The notes under the pieces are model-generated. The model did no database searches, was not told the DNA's origin, and saw nothing but the letters and a program-made list of their open reading frames with translations. 64,000 bases of DNA from Halosolutus halophilus. Its GTDB lineage: Archaea; Halobacteriota; Halobacteria; Halobacteriales; Natrialbaceae. The stretch is taken from positions 1,364,001 to 1,428,000 of the forward strand of contig NZ_CP094974.1 of assembly GCF_022869805.1 (NCBI RefSeq), given 5' to 3'. This document shows, in pieces, positions 1,344 through 31,248 of the stretch (position 1 is its first letter; each line of letters opens with the position of its first letter). A program made the translations under genes and the position numbers.

Positions 1344-2769
1344 CGCGCTCACCCCCGTCAGCGGCCACCGCACCGGAGGGACTGCGTTCCGGCCTGGATA
1401 GCGGGACGCTCGCCGCGATCTCCTTTCTGTGGCCCAACACTCCCTCGGTCCGGTTGTGCATGAGCCAGATGAGCACGAGTCCCATGATCACCAGCTGCAG
1501 CTGTCGGAGGCTGTCGAGCGTGTACAACAGGAATGGGACGACGTCCGGGAACTGCCCGACCGCCGGACCGAAGCTGGACGGTGCGCTGGGATCGCCGAGG
1601 GCGCTTTCGACGATGTTCTTGAAGTAGCGCGGCCCCTGGTAGAGGAACGCCGCGAAGATGGCGCCGCCGAGGACGCTCCCGGTGTTCGAACCGGAGCCCC
1701 CGATGATGAGGGCGATCCAGACGTAGAAGGTGATGCGCGGCCGGAACGTGTTCGGCGTGACCGACCCCTGGGTGCCGAACCAGAGGATACCCACGAGTCC
1801 CATCAGCGCGCAGCCGACCATGAACGACTTGATCTTGAACCGGTTCGTGTTCTTCCCCAGGGCGTTCGTGACGTCTTCGTCCTCGCGAATCGCCTTGAGG
1901 ACCCGACCGAACGGCGAGTTCCCCGTTCGAACGAGGAGGGCGTAGAATCCGCCCATTATGACGAGCAACAGGGCGGCGTAGACGAAGTTGTCCACGACCG
2001 GTTTCGGATTCGGGCTGATCACGAGGCCGATGCTGTCGACGATTACGCCGAGGTACACCTCCTCCCAGAGGACGTCGTCGGTGCCCAAGACGAGATCGAG
2101 CGGCCAACTGAGGGCGCTGATAAACCGCTCCAGCGGATCGCCGTAATCGAGGATGATCCCGTCGCCGCCGCCCAGGCCGATCCTGTAGCCGGCGATGTCA
2201 TTTTCCGGGTCCCCGCCGCTGAGCGTATCCGAGAGCAGGGAGAAGCGAACGATCTCCGACAGCGCGATGGTCACGATCGCGAGGTAGTCCGCACGCAGAC
2301 GCAACGCGGGAAGGGCTGCGATCAGGCCCAAAAGCGCCGCGGCGAGCATCCCCCCGAGGATGCCGATCCACAGGGGGAGACCCAGCCCGCCGACTTCGGC
2401 GGCGCTGGTGCCGGACCCGTAGACGGGCTTCGAGAGTATCGCGGTCACGTAGACGCCGGTCGCCATGAACGCGACGATCCCGATGTTGAACAGTCCCGTG
2501 TACCCCCACTGGAGGTTCAGGGCGAGCGCCGCCATGCCGAAGACGGCGATCCAGAACGTGAGCTGTCCGAGCTGGTTCATGAGTCCGCGGAAGGGGAATC
2601 CGATGATAAGACCGCCGATCAGGTACAGCGCGTAGATCCCGAGCAACAGCGCCAGTAGCATGGTCGCATCGTTCGGGAATTCGTAGCCGAACAGGCTGGC
2701 GGGATTCTGGGCGTCGCTCTGGCCGTAGCCGGGTTCTTCCGCGCCGGAATCGGTATCTGCGTCGGTCAT
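1336..2769 (-). CDS. livM: Branched-chain amino acid ABC transporter permease LivM
   Basis: Membrane permease of the HAAT importer, 477 aa. A soluble acidic N-terminus of about 45 residues is followed by multiple hydrophobic helices and the LivM-typical central segment LRLRADYLAIVTIALSEIVR (start of the EAA-like cytoplasmic loop region) and GRVLKAIREDE, which contacts the ATPase. The C-terminal 30 residues are hydrophilic. The chosen ATG at 2769 overlaps the livH stop by 4 bp; the open frame continues upstream but only as a shadow of livH. It pairs with LivH to form the transmembrane pore. Confidence 0.92.
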   Translation of the reverse strand: MTDADTDSGAEEPGYGQSDAQNPASLFGYEFPNDATMLLALLLGIYALYLIGGLIIGFPFRGLMNQLGQLTFWIAVFGMAALALNLQWGYTGLFNIGIVAFMATGVYVTAILSKPVYGSGTSAAEVGGLGLPLWIGILGGMLAAALLGLIAALPALRLRADYLAIVTIALSEIVRFSLLSDTLSGGDPENDIAGYRIGLGGGDGIILDYGDPLERFISALSWPLDLVLGTDDVLWEEVYLGVIVDSIGLVISPNPKPVVDNFVYAALLLVIMGGFYALLVRTGNSPFGRVLKAIREDEDVTNALGKNTNRFKIKSFMVGCALMGLVGILWFGTQGSVTPNTFRPRITFYVWIALIIGGSGSNTGSVLGGAIFAAFLYQGPRYFKNIVESALGDPSAPSSFGPAVGQFPDVVPFLLYTLDSLRQLQLVIMGLVLIWLMHNRTEGVLGHRKEIAASVPLSRPERSPSGAVAADGGERDE

Positions 2770-3884
2770 GCTGTCGTCCTCCCCGAGAAGAGCCCTTGCG
2801 GACGAACGACCAGAACCAGTATCATCACGGCGAAGGCCGCCGCGCGGGCGAATCCAGACGGAATCCAGATCACCGCGGTAGAGGCGGTCACCCCGATGAC
2901 CAGGCCGCCGAGGATGGAGCCGTAAATGGAGCCGATACCGCCCAGGATCACGGCCGCGAAGATGAGCAGCAACAGCAACCAGCCGTCGTTGAACGCGATC
3001 GTCCCCTTCCAGAGGACGAACATGTATCCCGCGACGCCGGAGAGCCCGCCGCCGATGATCCACGTCGAGCGGATGACTCGCTCGGTGGGGATCCCGGAGA
3101 TCCGCGCGAGCGACTCGTTATCGGCCATCGCCCGCATCGCCTTGCCGAGTTTCGTCCGCTGGAGCAGGAGGTGTACGCCGAGCATCAACCCTCCCGCCAC
3201 GATGATGAGGGCCAGGTCGTGCGCGGTGAACTGGACCGTTCCGCCGCCGATCTCCGGTCGAACGTTCGGTATCGAGCCGATCGCCGTCGTCCCTCGCGTA
3301 TCCGACCCGAAGACGAACAGCATGACGTATCTGAGCGCGAACGCGATGCCGATGCTCGTGATGAGCAGCGGAATGCCGCCGGCGTCTCGGATCGGCTTGA
3401 AGCCGTACCGATCGATCGCGAGCGCGAGCGCGATCGTGACCCCGCCAGCGACGAGTATGCCCGCGATCACGGCCACCGGAGTTTCGGCGACGTTGATTCC
3501 GAGCGCACCGCCGAACACGGAGCCGCCGGCGCCGACCATGGCGAGCGCGCCGATGTCGGTTTCCGAGCCGAAGCCGCCGGCGATGATGTAGGTCACCGCC
3601 CATCCGGAGAACGCGCCGGCGGTGATGTAGTCGCCGTGTGCGAAGTTAGCGAAGTTCAAGATGCTGTACGTCATCGAGAGACCGATCCCGGCGAGGCCGA
3701 TGACCAGCCCTCGCATGAGGCCGTCCCAGGTGAGCGTGATCAGGCGGGCGACGGTGAGGTCGCCGGTCGCGAGCTGGCGGACCAAGTCGACGAGTAACAG
3801 GACGCCGACGAAGATGAGGACGATCAGCAGCGGCTGTTCGACGGCTATCCGCCGCCCACGGTCGTACGTCTCTGCTACCCCCAT
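2766..3884 (-). CDS. livH: Branched-chain amino acid ABC transporter permease LivH
   Basis: First permease gene of the operon, 372 aa, almost entirely hydrophobic with about 8-10 predicted helices. The LivH hallmarks MTYSILNFANFAHGDYITAG and GKAMRAMADNESLARISGI (EAA loop) are present. The ATG at 3884 is preceded by GAGGT about 10 nt upstream, the only good Shine-Dalgarno near the candidate starts, so I prefer it to the start 61 codons further upstream. No periplasmic binding protein gene (livK) is adjacent in the window; it may lie beyond the left edge or elsewhere. It starts the livHMGF transcription unit. Confidence 0.92.
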   Translation of the reverse strand: MGVAETYDRGRRIAVEQPLLIVLIFVGVLLLVDLVRQLATGDLTVARLITLTWDGLMRGLVIGLAGIGLSMTYSILNFANFAHGDYITAGAFSGWAVTYIIAGGFGSETDIGALAMVGAGGSVFGGALGINVAETPVAVIAGILVAGGVTIALALAIDRYGFKPIRDAGGIPLLITSIGIAFALRYVMLFVFGSDTRGTTAIGSIPNVRPEIGGGTVQFTAHDLALIIVAGGLMLGVHLLLQRTKLGKAMRAMADNESLARISGIPTERVIRSTWIIGGGLSGVAGYMFVLWKGTIAFNDGWLLLLLIFAAVILGGIGSIYGSILGGLVIGVTASTAVIWIPSGFARAAAFAVMILVLVVRPQGLFSGRTTA

Positions 3885-4367
3885 CGGAATACCTCGTTCG
3901 TGGTCGCCGTTTTGCTCGTGCGTTCGTTCCGCCGGCTCGACCGGTCGGTCGAGCGCGCGAACGCGACTCGTGTTCCCCCGTATCTGTACCGATCGACAGC
4001 GTTCTCGATCGGTCTTTCCGGTCGTACGGTCATACGCCCCACCACCGCGGGCACTGACGCACGTCAACTGTGCACATATCCGGTTGGACTGTTACGCTGG
4101 GGGAAGATATAATTCACGCAATTCGGGGACACGGATGTTGTCGCACTGAGATGATTAGGGTCGACGCGAGTACGGTCGATTCGGCGGGTCGACGTGCACC
4201 TGCTCGAGACCGGATGGTCCGCCGCCCCGGCGCGACGGAGCAACAAGCGGTACCGACCGCCTCCGATCAGTTCACTCCCGCGATTTCGGAGCGGCGAGGG
4301 AACTCATACCCGGGAACGGAAGCGGACCGAGGAGCGCCGCCGTCCGTTCGAAGCCGCCGGAGGCGAT
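3885..4367. other. Intergenic region upstream of livH with a candidate TATA box
   Basis: No convincing gene lies in this 483-bp gap; open frames here are Arg/Pro-rich shadows. The only clear signal is AT-rich sequence around 4104-4121. Read on the minus strand, 4106-4113 contains a TATA-like element (AATTATATC). If used, transcription would start near 4080, leaving a leader of about 200 nt before livH. The distal end holds the 3' flank of the SDR gene. Confidence 0.35.
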
Positions 4368-29302: not shown

Positions 29303-29415
29303 ACGCGATCATTCTCGCCAACCGGAAAAAGAAGTTACCGAGTCGATTCCGTTTCCGAATCCGATCGGCCCCGGACGAACGCCTCGATATCTCCGTCGAT
29401 CACAGCTGTTTACTT

Positions 29416-29460
29416 CAGGGTAAACTACTTCGGGGTAATTTACTCTGGGGTAAACTACTT
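29416..29460. promoter_or_regulatory. Three tandem 15-bp iterons upstream of a winged-helix regulator
   Basis: Units at 29416-29430, 29431-29445 and 29446-29460 are (C/T)(A/G)GGGTAAACTACTT, CGGGGTAATTTACTC and TGGGGTAAACTACTT; the first and third are nearly identical and are 30 bp apart. Each unit holds an imperfect palindrome of type GTAAANTAC. A weaker fourth copy may precede them (29401-29415). The array ends 25 bp before the regulator ATG, so it is positioned to control that gene, probably by autoregulation, and perhaps the divergent gene too. Confidence 0.7.
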
Positions 29461-29485
29461 GGTGGTGGACTCCATACGGGTTCGT

Positions 29486-29902
29486 ATGAGTACCGACGTG
29501 GGGTCTGCCCAGGGGGCGGCCAACCGCGAACTGCTGCACTTCGTGACCCAGGAGACGCGGTTCGCGCTGGTGAACAACATTCTCCAGCATCCCGAGCAAC
29601 TGCCGTCGATGTACGAACTCGAACAACTGAATCCGAGCGTGAGCGACGCGACAGTCTACAAGCACGTCCAGAAACTCGTCGACGCCGGCATCGTCGAGGA
29701 GGTTTCGCTCCCGGACGACCAACGCCAGCAGGGCTACCCGTGGAAGTTCTACGGGTTGACCGACGAGGGACGGCAGTTCCTCGAAAAGCACAACCTGCTC
29801 GCAACGGAGGAGACGCTCCAACGCATCTACGAGACGATTTCCGATAAACCCGAGAAGATGATCAAGTACGAGAACGCACCCCGCCCCGATCACGACCCCT
29901 GA
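29486..29902 (+). CDS. Winged-helix transcriptional regulator
   Basis: DNA-binding protein of 138 aa, of a type widely found in haloarchaea. HTH and wing: LPSMYELEQLNPSVSDATVY with KHVQKLVDAGIVEEV as the recognition region, then GYPWKFYGLTDEGRQFLE as the wing and following helix. The C-terminus is helical. It has no ligand domain. Preceded by three 15-bp iterons, so it may bind its own promoter. Regulated genes are unknown; the divergent gene at 28748 is the nearest candidate. Confidence 0.82.
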   Translation: MSTDVGSAQGAANRELLHFVTQETRFALVNNILQHPEQLPSMYELEQLNPSVSDATVYKHVQKLVDAGIVEEVSLPDDQRQQGYPWKFYGLTDEGRQFLEKHNLLATEETLQRIYETISDKPEKMIKYENAPRPDHDP

Positions 29903-30026: not shown

Positions 30027-30566
30027 CTACGAGAGTCGCGCTGCGATGTCGGCTTCGGTGATAATCCCGACGGTCTCGCCCGCTTCGGTGATCATGACGG
30101 CCTTGTAGTGTTCGAGCAGGTTGCTGATCTCGTCGAGCGTCGCGTCCTTCGAGACCGTGGGGAAGCTCTCGCTCATGTGTTCCTCGACGGATTCGTCTCG
30201 CGCCTCGGAGTCGAGGTGAACGAGGTCGCTCTGGCTGATCGAGCCGACGGGGATCCCGTCCTGGATGACCGCCAACTGGGAGTAAGCCTCCGCTTCCATC
30301 TTCTGGGCGGCCTCGCTGACCGGATCGGCCGGCGAGACGCTCACGACGGCCTCGTTCATCAGGTCGTCGGCGCGGATGACGTCGCTCTCTGCCTTTTCCA
30401 GGGCGTTGACGATCCGCCGGAGCGTCGAGAGCCGTGGATCCACGTCACCGCCCTCGATCCGGGCGATCAACGGCTGTGAGACGTCGGCCTTGTCGGCGAG
30501 TTCGCTCTGGGTCAGTCCGAGTTCGGTCCGGCGCTGGCGGAGGTCCGCGGGCGTGGGAAGTTCCAT
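30027..30566 (-). CDS. XRE-type HTH and CBS-domain transcriptional regulator
   Basis: Protein of 179 aa with an N-terminal XRE HTH (residues about 8-58: RRTELGLTQSELADKADVSQ, PLIARIEGGD) and a C-terminal pair of CBS motifs (about 65-175, MNEAVVSVSPADPVSEAAQ and SESFPTVSKDATLDEISNLL). CBS pairs bind adenine nucleotides, so this would tune DNA binding to energy or ligand state. A TATA (minus strand, 30586-30594) and the palindrome ATAACC-ACG-GGTTAT sit directly before the ATG, and the mRNA is probably leaderless. Stands upstream (3' side) of the UPF0212 gene, which is on the same strand. Confidence 0.92.
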   Translation of the reverse strand: MELPTPADLRQRRTELGLTQSELADKADVSQPLIARIEGGDVDPRLSTLRRIVNALEKAESDVIRADDLMNEAVVSVSPADPVSEAAQKMEAEAYSQLAVIQDGIPVGSISQSDLVHLDSEARDESVEEHMSESFPTVSKDATLDEISNLLEHYKAVMITEAGETVGIITEADIAARLS

Positions 30567-30624: not shown

Positions 30625-30978
30625 TTACTCGTCGTCGGGAGCCTCGACGACCTCGACGACCGACAGCGGGACGTCCCGCAGCGCGCCGCCGACCTCGCTC
30701 TTGGCGATCCGGGAGGCGTGTTCCTCGCTGTCGGCGTTGAACACCTCCATCTCCAGCCCCAGTCCGACGAGCGCGGTGTCGGCGGCGATAAAGGCGGAGT
30801 CGAAGGGTTCGCCACAGGCGGGACAGCCCGTCGCACCGACTTCGACCTCCACGTAGTCCATGTCTTCACTGTTGAGCCGTTTGCCGGCCTCGCTGACGGC
30901 GACGCCGATCGCGTCGTCGATCTCCTCGACGTCACGGACCAGCCACGCAGCTTCCATCGCGACGAGATAGTTGCCCAT
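30625..30978 (-). CDS. UPF0212 (DUF555) family protein
   Basis: Archaeal UPF0212 protein, 117 aa. The family start MGNYLVAMEAAWLVRDVEEI is exact, and CPACGEPFDSAFIAADTALV contains a CxxC pair suggesting zinc. The rest, VGGALRDVPLSVVEV, is the conserved C-terminal part. The function is unknown. Start at 30978 rather than the in-frame ATG upstream because the family begins MGNYL. Ends 58 bp before the XRE-CBS gene on the same strand. Confidence 0.93.
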   Translation of the reverse strand: MGNYLVAMEAAWLVRDVEEIDDAIGVAVSEAGKRLNSEDMDYVEVEVGATGCPACGEPFDSAFIAADTALVGLGLEMEVFNADSEEHASRIAKSEVGGALRDVPLSVVEVVEAPDDE

Positions 30979-31248
30979 ACGTCGTGGTTGGTCCGAGGGG
31001 TTTCCTGCTTTGCGGTTCCGGTCGATGTACCGATCGTCCCAGGCTGCCGGCTGCGGGCGGAGTGCGCACGTGAATCGAATAATGCCCATAAGTTACGAGA
31101 CAGTAGCGGGTCGATTCGAGTCAGGATAACCGAATTCCGGTCCGAGTCCACCTGCAGTTTCCCGTTCACCAACTGGAGTTGAATCGCAAGCGGGCGTCGA
31201 CCCAATACTGTATTAACAATCATTATGTATCTCTGAACTCAGGAAGGC

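Follow-up and report, generated by a model that had tools for sequence, protein, structure and literature searches.

The intergenic region between two divergent genes of Halosolutus halophilus contains three 15-bp units that end at position 29460, 25 bp before the ATG of a gene for a 138-aa winged-helix protein (positions are those of the window, the whole 64,000-nucleotide stretch of DNA analyzed). This arrangement raises the question of what the array is, which protein reads it and with what effect. An earlier note, made from the sequence alone, had described the units as iterons most likely bound by the downstream regulator. The answer developed here is that the array is likely an autoregulatory operator, built of inverted rather than direct repeats and inherited together with the regulator.

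Dyad structure and conservation of the array

The exact 15-bp period and its 25-bp distance to the winged-helix gene, both claimed in the earlier note, were confirmed by the sequence. Within the 183-bp intergenic region, identity at a lag of 15 reaches 23/30, a value matched by none of 500 dinucleotide shuffles, and the result is the same (0/500) if the lag may take any value between 8 and 30. Repeat finding returned the same 15, 15, 15 spacing together with a fourth weak copy. The dyad TTTACTTCAGGGTAAA, from 29409, marks the true start of the array; its end and spacing had been given correctly, but the start at 29416 was too late. The sequence GTAAAYTACTY occurs at two places in the 5.06-Mb genome, both inside the array, and the 24-mer GTRRTTTACYYNNRRGTAAAYTAC, allowing up to three mismatches, occurs in the same genome at six places on the two strands, which represent the three array registers only (control, one). 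The palindrome is not significant when the window is considered alone, as 125 of 500 shuffles are equally good.

The nature of the unit emerges from comparison among relatives. Scanning the 138-aa protein against the genomes of 84,980 species yielded 61 relatives, all of them haloarchaea or unassigned archaea according to their record titles, five of which say plasmid. The upstream regions of the window and of the 58 relatives in which the regulator start is present (the fragments L096, L098 and L099 being dropped) were aligned on the promoter-proximal core, giving 59 regions compared entirely by descent, with some loci near copies of one another. In this set the consensus GTRRTTTACYCNNRRGTAAACTACTT is nearly invariant and the flanks are near random. 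The 9-mers GTAGTTTAC and GTAAACTAC are mutual inverted repeats, and the TTTAC columns, conserved in 59, 57, 55, 59 and 59 of the 59 regions, are as strict as GTAAA. The 15-bp direct repeat thus arises from a chain of TTTAC-N6-GTAAA dyads, in which half-sites are spaced 11 bp and centres 15 bp apart. The repetition implied by the word iterons is therefore real, but across the 59 regions its units are dyads rather than plain direct repeats.

The core dyad carries at most one mismatch in ten positions in 58 of the 59 regions and two in the other (L092), and lies 25 bp from the ATG in 48 regions, 26 bp in 10 and 39 bp in one. A second dyad upstream has up to three mismatches in 39 regions. Few regions (6/59 at the same threshold) have a third dyad as the window does, which places the window, with its three dyads (Table 1), at the long end of the range; these upstream sites keep to the dyad pattern and to the 15-bp spacing. 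For comparison, approximately 99% of 4283 far-upstream background positions show five or more mismatches to the dyad. The 15-bp motif expected before orthologues of the regulator is thus present, with the promoter-proximal dyad as its strict unit, whereas an array of three equal units is not general.

Table 1. Features of the array, its flanking genes and the putative overlapping promoter in the window.
Feature	Position	Strand	Centre	Remarks
Unit 1, GTAAACTACTTCGGG	29420-29434			
Unit 2, GTAATTTACTCTGGG	29435-29449			
Unit 3, GTAAACTACTT	29450-29460			
Outer dyad, TTTAC-N6-GTAAA	29409-29424		29416.5	0/10 mismatches; equivalent rare in orthologues
Middle, weaker dyad	29424-29439		29431.5	3/10 mismatches
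Core dyad, TTTAC-TCTGGG-GTAAA	29439-29454		29446.5	0/10 mismatches; candidate conserved operator; inside the 24-mer at 29435-29458
GTAAA-CTACTTGG, operator right arm	29450-29462	+		-36 to -24 from ATG; putative BRE/TATA
TA, proposed haloarchaeal WW -10 element	29475-29476	+		-11/-10 before ATG
Winged-helix regulator, 138 aa	29486-29902	+		Start ATG at 29486; presumed binder of the array
Divergent partner, 184 aa	28748-29302	-		Predicted NDT/DNPH1/TIR-like alpha/beta fold; invariant G54, E111, E120

Co-inheritance of the motif and the regulator

The motif TTTACYCNNRRGTAAAYTACTT, with up to two mismatches, and the regulator were both sought in 146 genomes of the order. Of the 81 motif places found, 72 are located no more than 150 bp ahead of a close regulator orthologue (42 orthologues in all), and all 25 exact matches are found just upstream of an orthologue. 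The motif is present in 38 of 40 genomes with the regulator versus 7 of 106 without it, the remaining 99 being free of the motif (Fisher 1.8e-25, in which independence is overstated because the sequences share descent). The two orthologues that lack the motif at two mismatches (in G039 and G074) both keep a remnant. Nine places lie away from any orthologue, against a total of six for a reversed-pattern control, and these were set aside as chance matches at two mismatches plus one orphan. Two of the nine overlap at a single site in G140, near which neither regulator nor partner is detectable; the orphan operator copy there (L172, G140:C2, approximately 1469-1496) has one mismatch and is followed by a short reading frame.

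The search for an orthologous divergent partner found none at 17 of 58 loci (one of which lies at a contig edge). Of these 17, 16 keep the operator 25-26 bp ahead of the ATG; the array is therefore linked with the regulator and not with the partner. Whether on a chromosome or on a plasmid, the array occupies the regulator promoter, mostly as one strict dyad. The dyads thus show the sequence features that characterize an autoregulatory operator: they lie at the promoter of the regulator itself, are conserved along with its orthologues and were not found elsewhere. Binding of the array by the downstream regulator, as the earlier note had presumed, is strongly supported at the level of sequence comparison, since the motif precedes nearly all orthologues and tracks the regulator through the 146 genomes.

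Across different genera, orthologues without a partner have flanks that closely resemble each other (L063, L069, L074, L078, L084, L085, L088 and L095, approximately 2100-3900). The start is ATGGAC or similar; in the loci examined, L063, L069, L074, L078 and L095 have a similar upstream gene, and a similar 121-aa gene lies downstream of several partner-less orthologues. The shared flanks suggest a mobile unit carrying the regulator together with its operator.

The predicted structure of the regulator (mean pLDDT 77.6) shares its fold, over nearly the whole chain, with PDB 3u1d from Halomicrobium mukohataei, an entry titled GntR-superfamily wHTH (TM 0.81/0.79; 31% identity; structure match E 2.7e-7; phmmer 6.6e-13), whose title names neither an operator nor a function. 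PadR and MarR proteins are also among the fold neighbours, 3u1d being far closer. In Pfam, the match to PadR (PF03551) covers residues 50-101 only and, at 26.9 bits, falls below the family cut-off of 27.0. The helix S-x-ATVYKH is invariant in 29 aligned orthologues, whereas paralogues carry other residues at that helix (TIRQHL and the like), and TTTAC-N6-GTAAA was not seen by eye upstream of ten paralogues. A general rule by which every paralogous pair would possess a palindrome of its own at the corresponding position was rejected: of 37 intergenic regions, no more than 7 outscored all 40 simple shuffles. A dyad approximately 30 bp before the ATG is present in a few paralogous pairs (L135 and L154, for example), which is a hint only.

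Expected promoter overlap, proposed mechanism and competing explanations

The BRE and TATA elements were placed by their distances from a leaderless start. If the transcript is leaderless, we infer that they fall on GTAAA and CTACTT, in the right arm of the core dyad. In H. volcanii, 72% of protein-coding transcripts are leaderless, and the haloarchaeal promoter motifs quoted in the same source are TTWT (TATA), CGAAA (BRE) and WW (the -10 element, cited there from Brenneis 2007) (PMC4983044). The dinucleotide at -11/-10 before the ATG has T in 45 and A in 58 of the 59 regions. CTACTT, which departs from TTWT, is a poor TATA box; it is stricter than its left-arm mirror across these regions, presumably because the right arm also serves as promoter.

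On comparative sequence evidence, the array is likely the operator through which the 138-aa winged-helix protein regulates itself. A regulator dimer would read TTTAC-N6-GTAAA, whose half-sites, 11 bp apart, are separated by one helical turn. The promoter-proximal dyad would cover the putative BRE and TATA elements of the leaderless promoter that drives the regulator gene, and binding there would block TBP/TFB; negative autoregulation is accordingly put forward as the most likely function of the array. Further dimers stacked on the dyads 15 bp upstream may strengthen occupancy and extend it toward the divergent partner gene, and, since the dyad centres are 15 bp (approximately 1.4 turns) apart, neighbouring dimers would by geometry lie on roughly opposite faces of the DNA. 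The regulator would thus probably switch off itself and perhaps its neighbour too.

PadR/MarR-type autorepressors are small wHTH proteins that act on a dyad operator in their own promoter region, with half-sites one turn apart and a divergent target. The present system is similar in its small wHTH protein, its own-promoter dyad one turn apart and its divergent gene, but differs in that a chain of dyads at 15 bp lies over the expected archaeal BRE/TATA. A further likeness is to CsmR of Haloferax volcanii, likewise a wHTH-type regulator from a haloarchaeon, whose dyad adjoins the core promoter: a semi-palindrome, TATCA-N4-TGATA, next to the TATA box (PMC13286277). CsmR has 65 ChIP peaks, whereas the motif of the window is confined to its own locus, and sequence and spacing differ.

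Several other explanations of the array were weighed. Binding by some other host-encoded factor, with the repeats merely located before the regulator gene, could draw on the seven genomes that have the motif without an orthologue, and on the fact that binding by the regulator is itself deduced; it is nevertheless improbable given that every exact motif lies upstream of an orthologue, that nearly all genomes without the regulator are motif-free and that the motif moves with the regulator gene into partner-less loci. The units might also be repeated core-promoter elements, GTAAA-CTACTT serving as BRE/TATA with no operator role, which would account for the exact repetition of GTAAACTACTT with one copy at the promoter position. 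Such a reading is very improbable, however, in view of a TTTAC half that is as strict as GTAAA yet lies outside the promoter, and of upstream sites that keep both the dyad and the 15-bp step. Replication or partition iterons share the short tandem units and fixed period, and some orthologues do reside on plasmids, but the position of the array on the regulator promoter irrespective of replicon, mostly as one strict dyad, and the finding that none of five neighbouring window proteins belongs to an initiator family when compared with Pfam make this idea extremely improbable.

The alternative closest to negative autoregulation retains the same protein and sites and reverses the sign. The strict dyad overlaps the putative BRE/TATA instead of lying upstream of them, and such overlap is the position typical of steric repression. 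Activation by the regulator of its own, and perhaps the partner's, promoter through recruitment of TBP/TFB to a poor TATA box is thus unlikely. In its favour, the departure of CTACTT from the TTWT quoted in PMC4983044 fits a promoter needing an activator, and a positive role is possible for regulators positioned immediately upstream of BRE/TATA, an argument made for CsmR (PMC13286277).

These results provide an uncharacterized haloarchaeal regulator family with a sequence-defined candidate operator, strictly inherited together with the regulator and restricted to a single locus; the two could serve halophile genetics as an orthogonal repressor/operator pair. The interest of the locus lies mainly in the conserved pairing of this regulator with a divergent protein family that has the predicted fold of nucleotide-cleaving immune effectors.

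The divergent partner and the paired family

The model of the partner (mean pLDDT 79.1) matches best the retron-Ec86/Eco1 effector (7xjg, 8qbl; Foldseek E 1.7e-4), with weaker E-values for DNPH1, nucleoside deoxyribosyltransferases (NDTs) and TIR-containing proteins; among the matches listed, VIA-align gives DNPH1 a Z of 11.4 over 122 residues with an rmsd of 2.6. The likeness to all of these is one of predicted fold. G54, E111 and E120 are invariant in 56 of 56 partner relatives, the fold matches themselves being at whole-fold level, and the invariant E...E-x-G motif presumably resembles that of DNPH1. By sequence, the partner has no match in Pfam, NCBIfam, PADLOC, PHROGs or PDB; the window protein matches no Pfam family at E up to 10, and none of 32 members of the partner family matches PF05014 (nucleoside deoxyribosyltransferase). 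Alignment to a DNPH1-like haloarchaeal protein (hhalign, E 0.51) does not support a family link, and sequence-level membership in NDT, TIR or defence families was considered and none was found.

Regulator and partner are tightly linked, which is the one feature of a toxin-antitoxin module that the two genes show. Among 39 partner loci chosen for diversity, some of which were already known to adjoin a regulator, 38 have a head-to-head regulator homologue and one (L158) has none. Ten loci picked by divergent regulators (L029-L038) comprise seven with a head-to-head partner, two with none and one (L036) with a same-strand partner, and the H. halophilus genome itself contains two more such pairs (L130 and L131) plus a lone regulator (L132). 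From these pairings it follows that the locus belongs to a large paired family, in which the operator is specific to one regulator clade. A literature search found no printed description of this pairing, which is seen across the order, and it apparently constitutes a widespread, undescribed haloarchaeal two-gene module. A viral origin was also considered; scans of viral_contigs with both protein alignments returned no relative.

In 18 of 41 partner-bearing loci, GTRATTTACTYCATAA forms a half-array 31-32 bp before the partner ATG, and the same regulator therefore probably also controls the partner there. A 19th match, in L070, lies elsewhere, and the partner promoter of the window is without this half-array.

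The Ec86 effector unites NDT-like and winged-helix domains, whereas here a separate, divergent gene encodes the DNA-binding protein. Domains of retron genes named in PMC12548924 include NDT-like and winged-helix ones. Speculatively, and on balance doubtfully, the partner could be an NDT/TIR-fold effector cleaving nucleotides or NAD that is held down by a private wHTH repressor and released, for example, on infection; the array would then be the switch of a large undescribed family of haloarchaeal divergent cassettes, corresponding to the retron NDT-wHTH effector split into two genes.

Some further features of these loci were observed. At L081 (1489-3408), a longer partner relative of 266 aa and a different divergent winged-helix-like gene lie directly upstream of the orthologous regulator, possibly as two modules side by side. 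In L067 (2576-2872) the partner frame is interrupted by a stop codon, and the regulator and operator look intact. The window neighbours at 30625-31089 and 30027-30566, a DUF555 protein and an HTH-CBS protein (paired in the order given), are both convergent with the regulator. Finally, CGGAAA boxes are repeated (as in TCGGAAACGGAAACGACTCGGAAAC) before the partner gene in Natrialbaceae-type loci, namely in the window (29330-29375) and in the partner promoters of L041, L053, L086, L089 and others, representing a second candidate cis element.
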